Shown here piece after piece: positions 6,421 to 47,742 of a DNA stretch of 64,000 nt. The stretch is from Flavisolibacter longurius (GTDB lineage: Bacteria > Bacteroidota > Bacteroidia > Chitinophagales > Chitinophagaceae), in the NCBI GenBank assembly GCA_013327885.1, contig JABUMY010000016.1:62001-126000 (forward strand), given 5' to 3'. Both the position numbers and the translations under genes were made by a program. The notes below the pieces were generated by a model that saw only the letters and a list, made by a program, of their open reading frames with translations, did not search any database and was not told where the DNA came from. Numbering within the stretch: the first letter of the stretch is position 1; each line of letters begins with the position of its first letter.

Positions 6421-6450
6421 GCTGCTGGCCAATGGCTGCTGGCTGATAGC
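6421..6450 (+). repeat. Left inverted flank of the four-helix-bundle gene
   Basis: GCTGCTGGC-type low-complexity repeat (GCTGCTGGCCAATGGCTGCT continuing to GGCTGATAGC). It matches the reverse complement of 6871-6902 at about 24 of 30 positions, so the two copies form an inverted pair around the small gene at 6489-6841. Confidence 0.7.
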
Positions 6451-6488
6451 CTGATTTCGGCCAATTGTTGTTTATCTTTTAACAAAAA

Positions 6489-6841
6489 ATGAAAGACTTC
6501 AAGAAGCTGCATGTTTGGCAAAAGGGTTTGATATCGCCGTTCACTGCTACCAGTTTGCTTCAACCTTGCCTAAGCACGAACAATTTGGCCTGATTTCCCA
6601 AATACCAAGGGCCGGGGTTTCCATTCCATCCAACATCGCGGAAGGCAGCAGCCGACACAGTGATAAAGATAACAGTCGTTTTGTTGAAATGTCGTTAGGC
6701 TCAAGCTTTGAGTTGGAGACACAACTTCTGATTGCAAAAGCGGTAAACTTTGGCAATATTGAAATGTGTGAGTCTTTGTTAAACCAACTTTCCAGCGAGC
6801 AACGCATGTTAACCATGTATTTAAAAAGCCTGGGTGTTTGA
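6489..6841 (+). CDS. Four-helix-bundle protein (S23 / 23S rRNA intervening-sequence family, Avd-like), frameshifted near the N-terminus
   Basis: The family-typical N-terminus MKDFKKLHVWQKG is encoded from ATG 6489, but the remainder (FDIAVHCYQFAS, PKHEQFGLISQIPRAGVSIP, SNIAEGSSR, ELETQLLIAKAV) is in the -1 frame and stays open to 6841. The switch coincides with A-AAG-GGT at 6521-6527, a possible slippery heptamer. An in-frame TTG at 6515 would give a 108-residue product lacking only about nine residues. The family is all-helical and oligomeric and includes the Avd accessory protein of diversity-generating retroelements; the function of stand-alone members is unknown. The gene is enclosed by inverted GCTGCTGGC repeats, and its last five codons form one arm of a hairpin. 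Confidence 0.75.
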
Positions 6842-6862
6842 AAATGCTCAAACACCCAGGCT
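6827..6862 (-). terminator. Hairpin overlapping the end of the four-helix-bundle gene; terminator for rny
   Basis: A perfect 15 bp stem (6827-6841 with 6848-6862) with a six-base loop. On the minus strand it is followed by TTTTT, fitting a terminator for the leftward rny gene. The left arm is exactly the last four sense codons and stop of the rightward small gene. Confidence 0.75.
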
Positions 6863-6870
6863 CTTCTAAA

Positions 6871-6902
6871 AGCTAGTAGCCAGCAGCTAATAGCTAGCAG
6901 CT
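6871..6902 (-). repeat. Right inverted flank of the four-helix-bundle gene
   Basis: AGCTAGTAGCCAGCAGCTAA followed by TAGCTAGCAGCT; the reverse complement of the 6421-6450 repeat with a few mismatches. Its outer end runs into the rny stop codon (TTA at 6902-6904 on the plus strand). Confidence 0.7.
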
Positions 6903-9480: not shown

Positions 9481-9556
9481 GGTAGTGAGTGGTGAGTGGT
9501 GAGTAGTGAGCAGTGATAGAGTCGCTTTGTACTCACCATTCACCACTCACCATTCA
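9481..9556. repeat. GTGAGTGG-type low-complexity inverted repeat
   Basis: Tandem GTGAGTGGT-like units (9484-9515) face CACTCACCATTC-like units (9531-9556) across a short spacer, so the RNA could fold into an imperfect hairpin directly in front of zapA. The same type occurs at 56066-56110 and, in frame, inside rsmE at 15472-15505. Confidence 0.75.
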
Positions 9557-9560
9557 CGTG

Positions 9561-19715: not shown

Positions 19716-22103
19716 ATGAATAAATTCTTGATTGCTATCTCATTTCTATTGAGTGCTGCTCTTTGTTTTGCGCAGCCGTCCGCCCGTATTAATTTAACCG
19801 GTAAGATCACCGATGCGCAGACCGGCGAACCGCTGCCGGGTGCCACTGTTTTTATGGCCGATATCCGCATTGGCGCCACGGCCGATTCTTCCGGAAACTA
19901 CAGTTTCAACAGCCTGCCTTCGGGCCACCATACCATCGAGGTTTCGTATGCCGGTTTTAATACACAAGTCATCCATATTGATGTTTATGCCAGCATGGTA
20001 AAGAATTTTTCCATTGCTCCCTCTGTTACCGAGCAGGAAGGCGTTACCATCACCGGTGTGGCCCACGCTACCACGCTTCGGGATGCACCCATCCCTGTTT
20101 CGGTCATTCGCCGGCAGGAAATGCTGCAGACGCCTTCCACCAACATTATTGACCTGATCTCCCGCCAACCGGGTGTGGCCCAGGTGAGCACCGGGCCAGC
20201 CGTTTCAAAACCGGTGATTCGCGGACTGGGCTTTAACCGCGTGGTGGTGGTAAATGATGGTGTACGCCAGGAAGGACAGCAATGGGGTGCCGAGCATGGT
20301 GTGGAGATTGACGAGCTGAGTGTACAGCGGGCCGAGGTGCTGAAAGGACCTTCGTCGCTTATGTACGGCAGCGATGCCCTGGCCGGCGTGGTCAACCTGG
20401 TGACCAACGTACCGGTGCCGGAAGGTACCGTTCGGGGAAACATCCTCGCCAATTACCAGACCAACAATTCGCTCCTGGGCCTGAACGGCAACATTGCCGG
20501 TAACCTGAACGGCTTTAACTGGAATGCCTACCTCACCAACCGGTCGGCCAGGGATTACCATAACAAGTATGATGGAAGAGTGCTGAACTCCCGCTTTAAG
20601 GAAACCAATTTTGGCGGATACGTCGGGTTGAATAAAAGCTGGGGATTCAGTCACCTTATTTTTAGTGCGCTGAACCAGGACCTTGGCATGGTGGAAGGCG
20701 ACCGTGATGATGCCACGGGGCAGTTTCTTGTTTACCCCGGTACTGCGCTGGAAAGAATTGCTACGAAAGCTGATTTTGAAAGTCGCACCCCGGTGGTTCC
20801 TTATCAAAACGTAAGGCATTACAAACTGGTAAGCGACAATAATTTTAATATCGGTCGCAGCCGTTTAAAACTCAACCTTTCTTACCAGAATAACCTGCGC
20901 AAGGAACTGGGCGAAGTGGAGCATGCCGATGAGCCCCACTTGTTTTTTGACCTGAAAACCCTGGGTTATAACCTGCAACTGACCCTGCCACAAACAAAGG
21001 ACTGGCAAACAACAGTAGGCGTGAGCGGTATGCACCAGGCTAATACCAACAAAGGAGAGGAGGCGATCATACCTGATTACAGCCTGTTTGACGTGGGTGC
21101 ATTTGTTTTTATGCAGCGATTTTTTTCCAAAACAACGCTAACGGGTGGCCTGCGTTTCGATAACCGCACGGTCAATGGAAAAGAAACCATGGAGCATGGC
21201 CATGAGAAATTTGAGTCTTTCTCCCGCAACTTTTCCAATTTCTCCGGAAGTGCCGGCATTAGCTACCACCCGGTGGAAAAACTAACGTTCAAGGCCAACC
21301 TGGCAAGAGGCTACCGGGCACCAACGCTTTCCGAACTGGCGTCCAACGGTGGCCACGAAGGCACCAACCGGTTTGAGTACGGGCAGCGTGACCTCAAGTC
21401 TGAAAAAAGCCTGCAGGCCGATGCCGGCGTGGTGGTGGATGCAATGCATTTTAGCCTAACGCTGAATGCATTTTATAACCGTATCAACGACTTTATCTTT
21501 TACCAGCGCCTGCAAAGCAGCTTGGGTGGCGACTCGCTGGTGACCGATCATGGCGAAACACTGGAGGCTTTTGCCTTTAACCAGCGTGACGCAAAACTGG
21601 CTGGTGTAGAAGTACAGCTTGACCTCCATCCGCATCCACTGGACTGGCTGCATTTTGAAAATACATTTTCGTTTGTACGTGGCCGTTTCGATGAGACGCT
21701 GGATGGCAGCAACAACCTGCCGCTGATTCCGGCAGCACGGCTGAACAGCGAATTGCGCTTCGACCGGAAGAAGTGGGGCAAAAGCCTGCGGAAGCTTTAT
21801 TTCTTGGTGGAAGCCAACTCCGTGTTTAACCAAAGCAAGGCCTTTGCCGGCTACAATACCGAAACCACCACACCGGGTTATGTATTACTGAACAGCGGGC
21901 TTGGTGCCGACCTCGTTTCGCGGAAAGGCAACACGCTGGCCAGTATTCATTTTGCAGTGAACAACCTGACCGACAGGGCTTACCAGGATCACCTGAGCCG
22001 CCTGAAATACACAGCCGAAAACAATGTTACCGGCCGGCAGGGTGTGTTTAACATGGGCCGCAATTTTTCGGTGAAGGTGAACGTGCCGATAAATTTTATG
22101 TAA
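19716..22103 (+). CDS. TonB-dependent outer-membrane receptor, possibly for a metal
   Basis: 795 residues. Signal peptide (LIAISFLLSAALCFAQ), CarboxypepD_reg-like domain (about 25-110; GKITDAQTGEPLPGATVF), plug (about 120-240; QEMLQTPSTNIIDLISRQPG, RGLGFNRVVVVNDGVRQEG, LKGPSSLMYGSDALAGVVN) and a 22-strand barrel ending in FSVKVNVPINFM. The plug and the loop KETMEHGHEKF resemble zinc/copper receptors of the ZnuD type. It follows the small His/Cys protein. The TAA stop is the first triplet of a 70 bp inverted repeat. Confidence 0.9.
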   Translation: MNKFLIAISFLLSAALCFAQPSARINLTGKITDAQTGEPLPGATVFMADIRIGATADSSGNYSFNSLPSGHHTIEVSYAGFNTQVIHIDVYASMVKNFSIAPSVTEQEGVTITGVAHATTLRDAPIPVSVIRRQEMLQTPSTNIIDLISRQPGVAQVSTGPAVSKPVIRGLGFNRVVVVNDGVRQEGQQWGAEHGVEIDELSVQRAEVLKGPSSLMYGSDALAGVVNLVTNVPVPEGTVRGNILANYQTNNSLLGLNGNIAGNLNGFNWNAYLTNRSARDYHNKYDGRVLNSRFKETNFGGYVGLNKSWGFSHLIFSALNQDLGMVEGDRDDATGQFLVYPGTALERIATKADFESRTPVVPYQNVRHYKLVSDNNFNIGRSRLKLNLSYQNNLRKELGEVEHADEPHLFFDLKTLGYNLQLTLPQTKDWQTTVGVSGMHQANTNKGEEAIIPDYSLFDVGAFVFMQRFFSKTTLTGGLRFDNRTVNGKETMEHGHEKFESFSRNFSNFSGSAGISYHPVEKLTFKANLARGYRAPTLSELASNGGHEGTNRFEYGQRDLKSEKSLQADAGVVVDAMHFSLTLNAFYNRINDFIFYQRLQSSLGGDSLVTDHGETLEAFAFNQRDAKLAGVEVQLDLHPHPLDWLHFENTFSFVRGRFDETLDGSNNLPLIPAARLNSELRFDRKKWGKSLRKLYFLVEANSVFNQSKAFAGYNTETTTPGYVLLNSGLGADLVSRKGNTLASIHFAVNNLTDRAYQDHLSRLKYTAENNVTGRQGVFNMGRNFSVKVNVPINFM

Positions 22104-22170
22104 AGCGGCCCCCACCTAACCTCCCCCGGTGGAGGAGGGACAGCTGACACACAGCCCACGCTTTTGCACG
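22101..22170 (+). repeat. 70 bp inverted repeat, left copy
   Basis: Begins TAAAGCGGCCCCCACCTAAC and ends CCCACGCTTTTGCACG. It equals the reverse complement of 22471-22540 with one mismatch (at the A in GCACG). Its first three bases are the stop codon of the TonB receptor gene. Confidence 0.9.
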
Positions 22171-22365
22171 AAACGTTTTTAGCCTCTGCCAGTTTGCTGG
22201 TAGAGGCTTTTGTTTTTTTGGATAACAATAAAATATTTGGCATGTGTAGGGACACGCCGTGGCGTGTCGTTCAAAAGCCCGATAGGGCTTTAACATGAAT
22301 AGCACCGGGTGAAACCCGGCGAAAAAAATGGGATATAAAAAAGAACCCCGAATGGGGTTCAATTT
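22171..22365. repeat. Composite palindrome module between convergent genes
   Basis: In order: terminator hairpin (22181-22219), GACACGCC-GT-GGCGTGTC (about 22250-22268), AAAGCCC-gata-GGGCTTT (22274-22291), GAATAGCACCGGGTGAAACC with CGGCG (22297-22321) and GAACCCC-gaat-GGGGTTC (22343-22360). The same series of elements recurs at 43935-44185. Non-coding. Confidence 0.75.
22181..22219 (+). terminator. Terminator after the TonB receptor gene
   Basis: AGCCTCTGCCAG pairs with CTGGTAGAGGCT (one G-U pair, loop TTTG), followed by a run of T. Confidence 0.8.
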
Positions 22366-22470
22366 TATACTGATAGCAATAAATCACCAATCTTTCTCTT
22401 GGTTTTCATGCGCTTCAAACCAGAAGTAATAAACTTTCATCCTTCCAAAATGACCTGGAAAAAATTGTAT

Positions 22471-22540
22471 CGAGCAAAAGCGTGGGCTGTGTGTCAGCTG
22501 TCCCTCCTCCACCGGGGGAGGTTAGGTGGGGGCCGCTTTA
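22471..22540 (-). repeat. 70 bp inverted repeat, right copy
   Basis: Reverse complement of 22101-22170 with one mismatch. Its outer three bases are the stop codon of the ABC exporter gene on the minus strand. Confidence 0.9.
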
Positions 22541-45660: not shown

Positions 45661-46356
45661 TTACTGGTCTTTTTTCTCTTTGCGTGGATTGGTCAGCAGC
45701 ACTTCGTCTACCAGCCCGTACTCTTTTGCTTCGGGAGCCGTCATCCAGTAGTCACGGGTCAGGTCTTCTTCCACCCGTTCGATCGTTTGTTCCGAATGGT
45801 TGCTGTAGATCTCGTACAGCTCTCTTTTAATCTTTTTCACCTCCCGCACGGTGATCTCGATATCGGTCGCTTGTCCGCCAATGGCACCGCTGGGCTGGTG
45901 CAGCATCACACGGGAGTGCTTCAGGGCAGCCCGCTTTCCTTTTGTACCCGCACAAAGCAGGAGCGAGCCCATAGAAGCCGCCATGCCGATACAGATAGTG
46001 GCCACATCGGGAGTGACGTATTGCATGGTATCGTAGATACCCAGGCCGGCATACACGCTGCCGCCGGGAGAATTGATGTACATGTTGATATCGCGGGTGC
46101 GGTCGGTGCTGTCGAGGAAGAGCAATTGTGCCGTGATAATGTTGGCCACTTCGTCATTGATGGGGTACCCCAAAAAAATGATGCGGTCCATCATCAGGCG
46201 GCTGTAAACGTCCATGACGGCCACGTTCATCGGACGTTCTTCGATAATGTTCGGCGTCAGCCCGGTAATGACATATTTGTTATAGCTGTCTAATGTGTTA
46301 CTCGAAATCCCCTTGTGCTTAACGGCATATTTTTCAAATTCTGATGGAAAACTCAT
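45661..46356 (-). CDS. clpP: ATP-dependent Clp protease proteolytic subunit
   Basis: 231 residues. Triad: Ser128 in GMAASMGS, His153 in VMLHQPSG, Asp202 in RDYWMTAPEAKEYG. Contains YINSPGGSVYAGLGIYDTMQ and an N-terminal region of about 40 residues (FEKYAVKHKGISSNTLDSY). The basic C-terminal tail (NPRKEKKDQ) may mark the hydrophobic-pocket side. It heads the clpP-clpP-(repeat)-clpX block; trigger factor is not adjacent. Confidence 0.96.
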   Translation of the reverse strand: MSFPSEFEKYAVKHKGISSNTLDSYNKYVITGLTPNIIEERPMNVAVMDVYSRLMMDRIIFLGYPINDEVANIITAQLLFLDSTDRTRDINMYINSPGGSVYAGLGIYDTMQYVTPDVATICIGMAASMGSLLLCAGTKGKRAALKHSRVMLHQPSGAIGGQATDIEITVREVKKIKRELYEIYSNHSEQTIERVEEDLTRDYWMTAPEAKEYGLVDEVLLTNPRKEKKDQ

Positions 46357-46446
46357 GTTCGTCTTTATTAGATTTTAAGCAATTTAATGGAAGGTAGGCT
46401 TACAAATACCAGGCCCGGCGCAAAAACCGGACATTTTGGCTGCGAA

Positions 46447-46482
46447 CCGCAGAGAACAGGAGAAGCGGAGGTTTTCGCAGAG
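46447..46482 (+). repeat. Left inverted flank of the GxxExxY gene
   Basis: CCGCAGAGAACAGGAGAAGC then GGAGGTTTTCGCAGAG. It matches the reverse complement of 46889-46924 at 31 of 36 positions, ends 19 bases before the ATG, and is of the CGCAGAGAA low-complexity type. Confidence 0.85.
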
Positions 46483-46501
46483 ATAATTTTTATATTTAGC
46501 T

Positions 46502-46888
46502 ATGACCACTGCTAACTTGAATTCTCTTGGAGGAATCATTCTCGATGCTTCAATAGCCGTTCATCGTGAGTTGGGACCAGGGCTTTTGGAATCTGCTTAT
46601 GAATTGGCACTGATGCAGGAGTTGATGCAAAAGGGCTTGGTGGTAAAAAGACAGGTTCCTGTGCAACTAGCTTATAAAGGAGTAAATCTTGGCAAAGCTT
46701 ATGAAATTGATCTCCTTGTAGAAGATGAGATCATTGTAGAAATCAAAGCCGTTTTGGAGATGCACCCCATCTTCATGGCCCAAATCATTACCTATCTGAA
46801 GCTATATGGCAAAAAGCTAGGTTACCTCATTAACTTCAATGAGACCTTATTGAAGAACGGTTTCAAAAGAGTAGTGTATAACATTTAA
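46502..46888 (+). CDS. GxxExxY protein (PD-(D/E)XK nuclease-like)
   Basis: 128 residues. The name-giving motif is G27-L-L-E30-S-A-Y33 in LGPGLLESAYELAL. Further on, YEIDLLVEDEIIVEIKAV supplies Asp70, Glu80 and Lys82 in the spacing of a PD-(D/E)XK nuclease core (PF13366-type). A C-terminal helix-strand pair (AQIITYLKLYGKKLGYLINF) completes the fold. All putative catalytic residues are present. Function of the family is unknown. The gene is enclosed by 36-base inverted repeats; the right one starts with the base after the stop codon. Confidence 0.88.
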   Translation: MTTANLNSLGGIILDASIAVHRELGPGLLESAYELALMQELMQKGLVVKRQVPVQLAYKGVNLGKAYEIDLLVEDEIIVEIKAVLEMHPIFMAQIITYLKLYGKKLGYLINFNETLLKNGFKRVVYNI

Positions 46889-46924
46889 CTCTGCGAAACC
46901 CTCTGCCTCTCCCCTTCTCTGCGG
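46889..46924 (-). repeat. Right inverted flank of the GxxExxY gene
   Basis: CTCTGCGAAACCCTCTGCCT then CTCCCCTTCTCTGCGG; the reverse complement of 46447-46482 with five mismatches. It begins immediately after the TAA stop. Confidence 0.85.
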
Positions 46925-46971
46925 TAACCACCACGGAACAGCATTTGCAACACTCTCCCCAAATTCAATCT

Positions 46972-47742
46972 ATGTTCATTCCGGTAGGCGATGATAACAG
47001 GGACAGGAGCACCACACCCTATATAAACTATCTTTTTATAGGCATCAACATCCTGGTGTTTGTTTTTCTGCAGGGCATGGGCAACGATTACAATTTTACG
47101 TTTGCTTATGCCACGGTACCAGGTGAGATCCTTACCGGCGAAGATTTTGTTTCTGAATCCAAAGTGTTCCGGGATGCCATTACGGGAGAACGCATCACCA
47201 TGCCCGGACTGCAGCCTACAAACATCCCGGTTTATTTTACGCTGATCACCTCTATGTTCATGCACGGAGGCTGGGCGCATCTTTTGGGGAATATGCTGTT
47301 CTTGATGGTGTTTGGTGATAACATCGAAGATGCCATGGGACACCGTCGCTATTTTTATTTCTACCTGCTTTGTGGTGTGCTGGCAGGCCTTAGCCATGTC
47401 CTCACATCGGCCTTTACCAGCCAAAGCATTTATATTCCAAGCCTTGGCGCATCGGGGGCCGTTTCCGGTGTCATGGGTGGTTATATGTTGCTGTTTCCTA
47501 CCCGGTCGGTGCACATGTGGATCTTCTTTTTTATCAGCTCCGTGCCGGCGTTTATTGCTGTGGGCATCTGGTTTGTGTTCCAGGTCATCAACGGCATGGG
47601 CATGCTGGGAGGCGAGGAGTCGGCCGGTGGGGTGGCTTACGCGGCGCATATCGGTGGGTTTATTGTTGGCTTCCTGCTGGTAAAGCTTTTTGCCAAAAAG
47701 CGGCGGGTTCAATTAATAAAGGAAGAAGAAGCGTCCTGGTAA
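46972..47742 (+). CDS. Rhomboid family intramembrane serine protease
   Basis: 256 residues, polytopic. Catalytic Ser161 in LGASGAVSGVMGG and His226 in YAAHIGGFIVG; loop 1 region FMHGGWAHLLGNMLFLMVFG around 97-114. A non-membrane insert (EDFVSESKVFRDAITGERIT, about 57-76) lies between the first and second helices. The start ATG 46972 is preferred over the TTG at 46945. Substrates unknown. The 3' end overlaps the convergent lipid kinase gene by 30 bases. Confidence 0.93.
   Translation: MFIPVGDDNRDRSTTPYINYLFIGINILVFVFLQGMGNDYNFTFAYATVPGEILTGEDFVSESKVFRDAITGERITMPGLQPTNIPVYFTLITSMFMHGGWAHLLGNMLFLMVFGDNIEDAMGHRRYFYFYLLCGVLAGLSHVLTSAFTSQSIYIPSLGASGAVSGVMGGYMLLFPTRSVHMWIFFFISSVPAFIAVGIWFVFQVINGMGMLGGEESAGGVAYAAHIGGFIVGFLLVKLFAKKRRVQLIKEEEASW

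Follow-up and report, generated by a model that had tools for sequence, protein, structure and literature searches.

Genes of the GxxExxY family often lie between inverted heptamer repeats and probably form a minimal selfish element

Genes of the GxxExxY family, for which we know of no established role, are frequently enclosed by inverted repeats (hereafter called arms, and the enclosed genes caged). The copy studied here forms, with its arms, a cassette of about 480 bases (arm, gene, inverted arm) in the window, by which we mean the whole stretch of 64,000 nucleotides of Flavisolibacter longurius DNA that was analyzed. Because the gene sits within its own inverted repeats and gene-free repeats are scattered elsewhere, the unit resembles a minimal selfish element through which hairpin DNA spreads. 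We consider it probable that the cassette is such an element of the REPtron/TIRtron type, with the gene product acting on the arms. Linking GxxExxY to heptamer repeats would assign a function to the gene and explain where the repeats come from; we know of no source for such scattered heptamer repeats.

The Cassette in the Window and Its Protein

An earlier note on this DNA had claimed 36-nt arms (46447-46482 and 46889-46924) identical at 31/36 positions, a 19-nt spacer before the ATG and a right arm starting at the first base after the stop codon (TAA). These coordinates and counts are exact, and Asp70, Glu80 and Lys82, which the note had also reported, are all present in the translated gene. 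The arms begin ACCGCAGAG, are repetitive and of low complexity, and belong to a longer repeat of 49 nt with 41/49 identical positions (table 1). The inverted-repeat score of the cassette, 58, is reached by 0/2000 dinucleotide shuffles, whose scores average 18 and peak at 29; among the 11 inverted repeats of the whole window (at least 26 nt long, with arms at most 1500 bases apart) that of the cassette is the second longest. The cassette folds as a single DNA strand with z = -4.9, and no Rfam family reached its gathering score in the four loci tested. No target-site duplication is visible at the window, in agreement with the earlier reading. From their sequences we take the left neighbor to encode a ClpP-like protease subunit and the right neighbor a rhomboid-like membrane protein.

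Table 1. Features of the cassette and of its neighbors (positions in the window)
Feature	Position	Strand	Remarks
Left arm	46446..46494	+	Core of 37 nt at 46446-46482 with CGCAGAG-like heptamers; inner part to 46494 A/T-rich
GxxExxY / PDDEXK_3 nuclease gene	46502..46888	+	128 aa; H21-D70-E80xK82-Q94xxxY98
Right arm, inverted copy of the left arm	46877..46925	-	Core at 46889-46925; the 49-nt form extends into the last codons of the gene
Left neighbor gene	45661..46356	-	Insertion-site boundary for the comparison with relatives
Right neighbor gene	46945..47742	+	Insertion-site boundary; ATG at 46972 is the likelier start

The window protein falls in TIGR04256 GxxExxY (136.7 bits against a cut-off of 35; E 4.3e-40) and in PF13366 PDDEXK_3 (133.5 bits against a cut-off of 22; E 5.7e-39), the latter being the only Pfam family above its cut-off; no HUH tyrosine (Y1), DDE or serine transposase was found in it by the Pfam search. 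Its AlphaFold model is very confident (pLDDT 96.1, pTM 0.89), and the best solved structural neighbors returned by Foldseek, none at E 0.001 or better, are a tRNA splicing endonuclease, Cas4 SSO0001 (TM up to 0.57) and lambda exonuclease (TM about 0.5, query-normalized). No PDB chain matches the protein by sequence. Among 189 genes, E30 and E80 are invariant (189/189 each), and D70 (188), K82 (188), Q94 (184), Y98 (178) and H21 (177) are nearly so; we take this H-D-ExK-QxxxY set, which is complete in the window protein, to be the RecB/Cas4-type motif. The protein is modelled as a PD-(D/E)XK nuclease resembling Cas4 and lambda exonuclease, with an apparently intact active site. It shares the residue set and, at no significant Foldseek E value, the fold neighborhood of Cas4, lambda exonuclease and RecB-type nucleases, and differs from them in being encoded by a stand-alone gene within a palindrome.

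Flanking Repeats Across the GxxExxY Family

The genome of the window contains eight GxxExxY genes, and the other seven share the window layout with different arm sequences, the arm type varying by locus (CGCAGAG, CACAAAG, CACGAATT, TCTGAACTG..GATT and others). When the upstream flank of each gene was scored against the reverse complement of every downstream flank, the own partner was the highest in 8/8 rows of the 8 x 8 matrix. In shuffle tests six loci beat 500/500 shuffles; the remaining two, L003 and L006, are weak, being reached by 10/500 and 9/500 shuffles.

The earlier note had proposed a comparison of GxxExxY with other genes across Bacteroidota, and the association with inverted arms was upheld, since a score of at least 34 is found in 112/181 GxxExxY genes (62/106 phylum genes and 50/75 named genes) against 6/294 neighbor ORFs (Mann-Whitney p 1.4e-56). 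The other 69/181 genes score below 34. The CGCAGAG type, for which the comparison had been suggested, does hold at the window but is one arm type among several that follow a looser heptamer rule. According to record titles, from which we assigned the phylum names, the 50 named caged genes span about ten phyla, namely Bacteroidota (with Ignavibacteria), Pseudomonadota, Desulfobacterota (Geobacter kin), Acidobacteriota, Verrucomicrobiota, Planctomycetota, Chloroflexota, Cyanobacteriota, Chlamydiota and KSB1.

Comparison with mismatched pairs of flanks is a strict control, because different loci have heptamers in common and orthologous sites have arms in common. The own pair nevertheless lies above 95% of mismatched pairs in 7/8 genes of the genome, 29/39 of the genus, 22/28 of the family and 24/30 of the phylum (105 genes, after dropping 5 duplicates, 4 contig-edge and 4 partial genes), and in 48/75 usable genes from 80 named loci (6 edge genes dropped). 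Within a set of 53 genes from the genus, the own pair has the highest score of its row in 29 cases and in 21 exceeds the 99th percentile of mismatched pairs. The 181-gene counts likewise exclude duplicates, edge and partial genes.

The family is present in 16/18 genus genomes, 39/60 genomes of the family sample and 50/99 of the phylum sample; its distribution is patchy and multi-copy, with 1 to 15 matches per positive genome in the 39/60 family genomes. Searches with one protein query retrieved it from 0/50,697 phage records and 6/72,556 plasmid records, and on these counts phage or plasmid carriage was rejected as its usual vehicle. (Identical copies in G003, the only identical ones seen, were discarded as a case of recent transposition, since they are contig ends overlapping in the assembly.) The GxxExxY domain lies within an 883-aa frame in one genus (G098, G109 and G125; loci L379 and L380 belong to G098 and G109), and in G098, the genome to which Pfam was applied, it is fused to a RecQ helicase. 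Neither of the two RecQ-fused genes tested has a flanking repeat (score 21 in G098, 20 in G109), which fits domesticated copies.

Arms in the 112 genes scoring at least 34 have a median length of 39 nt and a median identity of 85%. Between the left arm and the start codon lies a median of 22 nt (quartiles 65 to 4 nt); at the other end, a median of 4 nt separates the stop from the right arm (quartiles -4 to 50). In the 131 left arms that score at least 30, out of 181 genes, the heptamer C[AG]CN[AG][AC]G occurs 241 times in forward orientation and 20 times as reverse complement, with 58 occurrences of the reversed pattern. Heptamers are arranged in tandem and point inwards, 113/151 spacings being 8-10 nt, and sixteen arms follow the alternative type GAAC..GAT.

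Arm similarity follows protein identity, with a Spearman coefficient of 0.454 overall and 0.378 in pairs below 50% identity; 0/300 permutations reach the observed value, the largest giving 0.135. Such covariation shows that gene and arms are inherited as one unit. The similarity of arms that survives at low protein identity suggests that the protein may recognize its own arms, and plain co-inheritance of a linked unit could also produce the covariation.

Arms Without Genes

A DNA search with the window locus as query detected ten further sites of the window arm family in the same genome at E <= 0.001, and sites of this family also occur in G010 and G015. Single 37-nt arms are found at C22:382842, C13:12275, C6:118650 and other positions of the own genome, arm hairpins with an 11- to 12-nt loop at C2:128359 and C22:385212, and arm pairs 70-120 nt apart on contigs C19, C11 and C4. 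Single-strand folding of three gene-free hairpins, two of the own genome and one of G010, gives z values of -8.6, -12.1 and -6.6. In 1.26 Mb of the own genome further arm sites were counted for L005 (8), L004 (3) and L001, L002 and L008 (2 each, those of L008 weak), against 0-1 per family in the reversed control; over the same 1.26 Mb the arms of L003, L006 and L007 have no further copy of their own, the one match of L003 being the L006 arm. Some solo L005-type arms start at the stop codon of an ORF.

Across the phylum sample a strict pattern, in which two similar heptamers follow CACAGAG, gave 53 matches, some of them overlapping, in 12/99 genomes belonging to 11 genera, and the reversed pattern matched in 0/99. 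It was picked after a looser heptamer pattern had proved uninformative; the latter was rejected as evidence, having 60 matches, in genomes with and without the gene, against 53 in its reversed control. The strict triple heptamer is present in 12/50 genomes with GxxExxY against 0/49 without (Fisher p 2.3e-4, kinship ignored) and, within family f14, in 5/8 genomes with the gene against 0/3 without. Thirty of the 53 sites were examined, and 27 of these have no GxxExxY gene within 500 bases. (The strict pattern is unmatched in the own genome, whose arms are CGCAGAG.)

Orthologous Sites in Related Genomes

The neighbors of the window cassette adjoin each other in G006, G005 and G015, and the same cassette occupies the site in G010. 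By eye, this L004 site contains neither gene nor arm nor palindrome in G006 and G005, and one degenerate arm with no gene in G015. The G010 orthologue of the window gene is split between frames near its start, its main frame lacking an ATG. The two arms differ at 5/37 positions in the window, where the gene is intact, versus 1/37 in G010, where it is broken; this lends no support to the earlier suggestion that the family may maintain such repeats, and active maintenance of arm identity by the gene was discarded as unsupported by the arms of the two genomes.

Other loci give a similar picture of filled, empty and decayed sites. The L001 site is filled in G010, G013 and G017 and carries decayed genes, supported by profile, in G005 and G006. 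At the L002 site a GxxExxY gene is present in the own genome and in G006, and a 23S_rRNA_IVP gene, with a frame break and between similar short-unit arms, takes its place in G010. The L008 site is a 126-base gap with neither gene nor arms in G010, the closest relative, despite the loss of Lys82 in the L008 protein of the own genome, and we count this against the element model; in G013 the same site holds a different GxxExxY gene (L048) with a different arm type, and in G017 a palindrome seen by eye only, the aligner giving another, weak one (score 27). G006 lacks the solo hairpin L010 (by eye), and G010 has at its site an unrelated palindrome with GGCCCCC..GGTGGGGG arms, directly after the same terminator-like stem (by eye). 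A gene remnant read by eye at the L007 site in G010 was discarded, its profile E being only 2.5.

The comparison of empty with filled sites that the earlier note had called for yielded empty sites, with one degenerate arm in G015 alone. No target-site duplication is readable, the empty sites being too diverged for base-by-base alignment, and no excision, insertion or new copy was seen among the genomes compared, one per species. We infer mobility of the cassette from its presence and absence between species.

Relation to Known Systems

To our knowledge, tyrosine transposases are the only enzymes of REP-like biology. REP families reach hundreds of copies, in contrast to the roughly ten further genome sites of the window arm family. 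The earlier note had drawn a parallel with RAYT/REP arrangements, an apt one given the dispersed solo arms and hairpins and the several RAYT-type genes of the own genome that share the layout. As far as the available text of the two papers goes, REPtrons and REPINs with their RAYT (TnpA-REP) are, like the cassette, small single-gene units between inverted repeats, and these repeats are also dispersed as singles and hairpin pairs (PMC3733652, PMC6006769). They differ in their enzyme, RAYT being an HUH tyrosine enzyme and that of the cassette a PD-(D/E)XK nuclease, and in their repeats, since the window arms are tandem heptamers with no GTAG (or CGTC) tag at the repeat foot. The closest published layout is that of the TIRtrons (TIRYT), genes with terminal inverted repeats of greater length, which in some species make up repeat families of moderate abundance; the enzyme is again a tyrosine transposase, and the available part of the article mentions no PD-(D/E)XK case (PMC3733652). 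The cassette is like a REPtron or TIRtron in the way it works, and it fails membership of either group because its enzyme is of another class.

The 23S rRNA intervening sequence, too, has a small S23/IVP ORF inside a terminal-inverted-repeat stem and has been called a selfish element; in the accessible part of the source it is located in rRNA, and RNase III cuts it out of the RNA (PMC4990558). IVP-family genes of the own genome lie outside rRNA and some are flanked in the same manner as GxxExxY, but IVP is not a nuclease family. Free-standing PD-(D/E)XK homing endonucleases are likewise small products of a selfish-looking gene, which interrupts a defined target. The cassette resembles them in having a small PD-(D/E)XK enzyme from a selfish-looking gene, yet it seems to carry its own arms, two empty loci being armless and G015 the exception.

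In the literature searched, whose coverage leaves subscription journals largely outside, GxxExxY appears in two papers, in one as a neighbor label and in the other as a gene-list entry, and the name PDDEXK_3 is absent. Among the top matches on REPIN/RAYT, heptamer repeats, DUF559, intervening sequences and TIRtrons, no PD-(D/E)XK gene is tied to such repeats, and no paper describing the GxxExxY cassette as a caged element was found in this literature.

Proposed Mechanism and Alternative Explanations

We read the element as a REPtron/TIRtron-like hairpin element with a PD-(D/E)XK nuclease and no tyrosine transposase, of which the solo units and short hairpins would be non-autonomous derivatives, in the relation that REPs and REPINs bear to RAYTs. 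The arms, whose foldability is computed, would form a hairpin or cruciform in single-stranded DNA, for instance at a replication fork. The GxxExxY nuclease would then recognize its own heptamer arms, as the parallel divergence of protein and arms suggests, and may cut or trim the structure they form, as could be expected from its fold and active site in silico. The arm-gene-arm or arm-arm unit would subsequently be copied to a new intergenic site, sometimes by a terminator or a stop codon, possibly through host repair or template switching. Presence and absence at orthologous sites are observed, and the joining itself is wholly conjectural because we know of no strand-transfer activity in PD-(D/E)XK nucleases of the Cas4/RecB/lambda-exonuclease kind. 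Copies would finally decay to pseudogenes and lone arms, with which the decayed copies at one site in two relatives are consistent. If this reading is true, a second, unrelated enzyme class joins REP-like biology, and one small protein with one hairpin would suffice for a direct test of how such repeats spread.

Alternatively, REP-like arms might be spread by a tyrosine transposase acting in trans or by hairpin slippage, the nuclease gene riding on them or protecting them. RAYT-type genes with arms of their own are present in the same genome, unrelated gene families have the same cage, and a single site is occupied by GxxExxY in two species and by 23S_rRNA_IVP in a third, all of which would fit. 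We nevertheless regard this explanation as unlikely, since the RAYT arms of the own genome, of CCCGGAGGGCTTT and AAAGGGC types, are unlike the GxxExxY arms, and the heptamer arms track both the presence of GxxExxY across genomes and the divergence of its protein.

Homing, which the earlier note had also evoked, appears rather improbable and not well supported by the orthologous sites. The nuclease would cut solo arms or hairpins, the gene would be recombined into their middle, and the flanking arms would be the halves of the target. Solo hairpins of the same arm family do exist, and the lone degenerate arm of G015 lies exactly where the own genome carries the gene; the gene-free L008 site in G010 and the window site in G006 and G005 are, however, without arm or palindrome (by eye), and arms derived from a target need not track the protein, yet they do.

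It is very unlikely that nothing moves and that the arms act at the RNA level, pairing in the mRNA to control the translation or stability of a chromosomal repair nuclease. The median positions of the arms, close to start and stop, often place both codons at the base of one stem, as this explanation would have it, and the RecQ fusion points to a use in repair. But the same arms are dispersed without the gene, the two RecQ-fused genes tested lack flanking repeats, the four loci tested have no Rfam match, orthologous sites are empty in relatives, and the solo hairpin L010 is present or absent between relatives, as seen once. Chance pairing of low-complexity sequence, which the repetitive arms might evoke and to which only L003 and L006 come near by lying within shuffle range, has a negligible probability and is ruled out by the shuffles at the window (0/2000) and by the family counts (112/181 against 6/294).

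Other Caged Genes

In 1.26 Mb of the own genome, a score of at least 34 is found for 16/796 control ORFs with a length of 80-400 aa, compared with 5/6 for GxxExxY. Pfam identified ten of the 16 control proteins as three Y1 transposases, three 23S_rRNA_IVP, one DUF559 endonuclease-like protein, two DDE transposases and one RNaseH-like protein; the remaining six comprise one spurious ORF in a repeat, one RAYT and one DDE transposase by sequence likeness, and three that, by their look, we take to be ordinary metabolic or redox genes. As RAYT genes with terminal repeats and IVP genes in a stem were already known, the method recovers known caged genes. The evidence is strong that GxxExxY is a further caged-gene family, and DUF559 is only a lead. 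Genes found by profile and scoring at least 28 amount to 4/5 for IVP, 5/6 for the RAYT type and 2/4 for DUF559 in a test biased by seed genes chosen for having flanking repeats; once the seeds are excluded, the figures become 0/1, 2/3 (one scoring only 28, one a known control case) and 1/3, respectively.

More tentatively, and with a probability we would place well below even, palindrome-caged genes could constitute a general class of minimal selfish bacterial DNA, in which HUH RAYT, GxxExxY, DUF559 endonuclease and the non-nuclease 23S-IVP would each breed a repeat family of their own and vie for shared intergenic landing sites. Since the PD-(D/E)XK nuclease is the only element-encoded protein of the GxxExxY branch, the latter would spread without a transposase, by hairpin cutting followed by host copying.

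Three further inverted repeats were noted in the window. A 23S_rRNA_IVP (four-helix bundle) gene at 6515-6841 (+) lies between 30-nt inverted arms within 6421-6901, the arms consisting of GCTGCTGGC units with 80% identity, that is, the same cage with another cargo. At 22101-22540, inverted arms of 80 nt and of CCCCCACCTAACCTCCCCCGGTGG type, 95% complementary and 280 nt apart, enclose no convincing gene. A solo palindrome at 9485-9557 has GGTGAGT-like heptamers, and the same arm type flanks an IVP gene at C22 ~418857.

Long CCCTCCCCC / CCCTCACCCC inverted repeats surround both of the DUF559 genes at C22:158452-159015 and C44 ~165210, and two longer DUF559 genes have no flanking repeats; DUF559 is possibly a second nuclease family with the cassette layout. 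Around the L003 cassette, the diverged first ~25 codons of one gene are found on both sides (~1343-1420 and ~1907-1990), as if the unit had brought its own copy of the start of its neighbor, a presumably HsdM-like gene by name. Finally, an RNaseH-like (PF04308) gene at C7:15536-16096 lies between inverted GTACAAGAGTGCGACGCAA repeats, a motif that also occurs near L003 and, in part, in G012.
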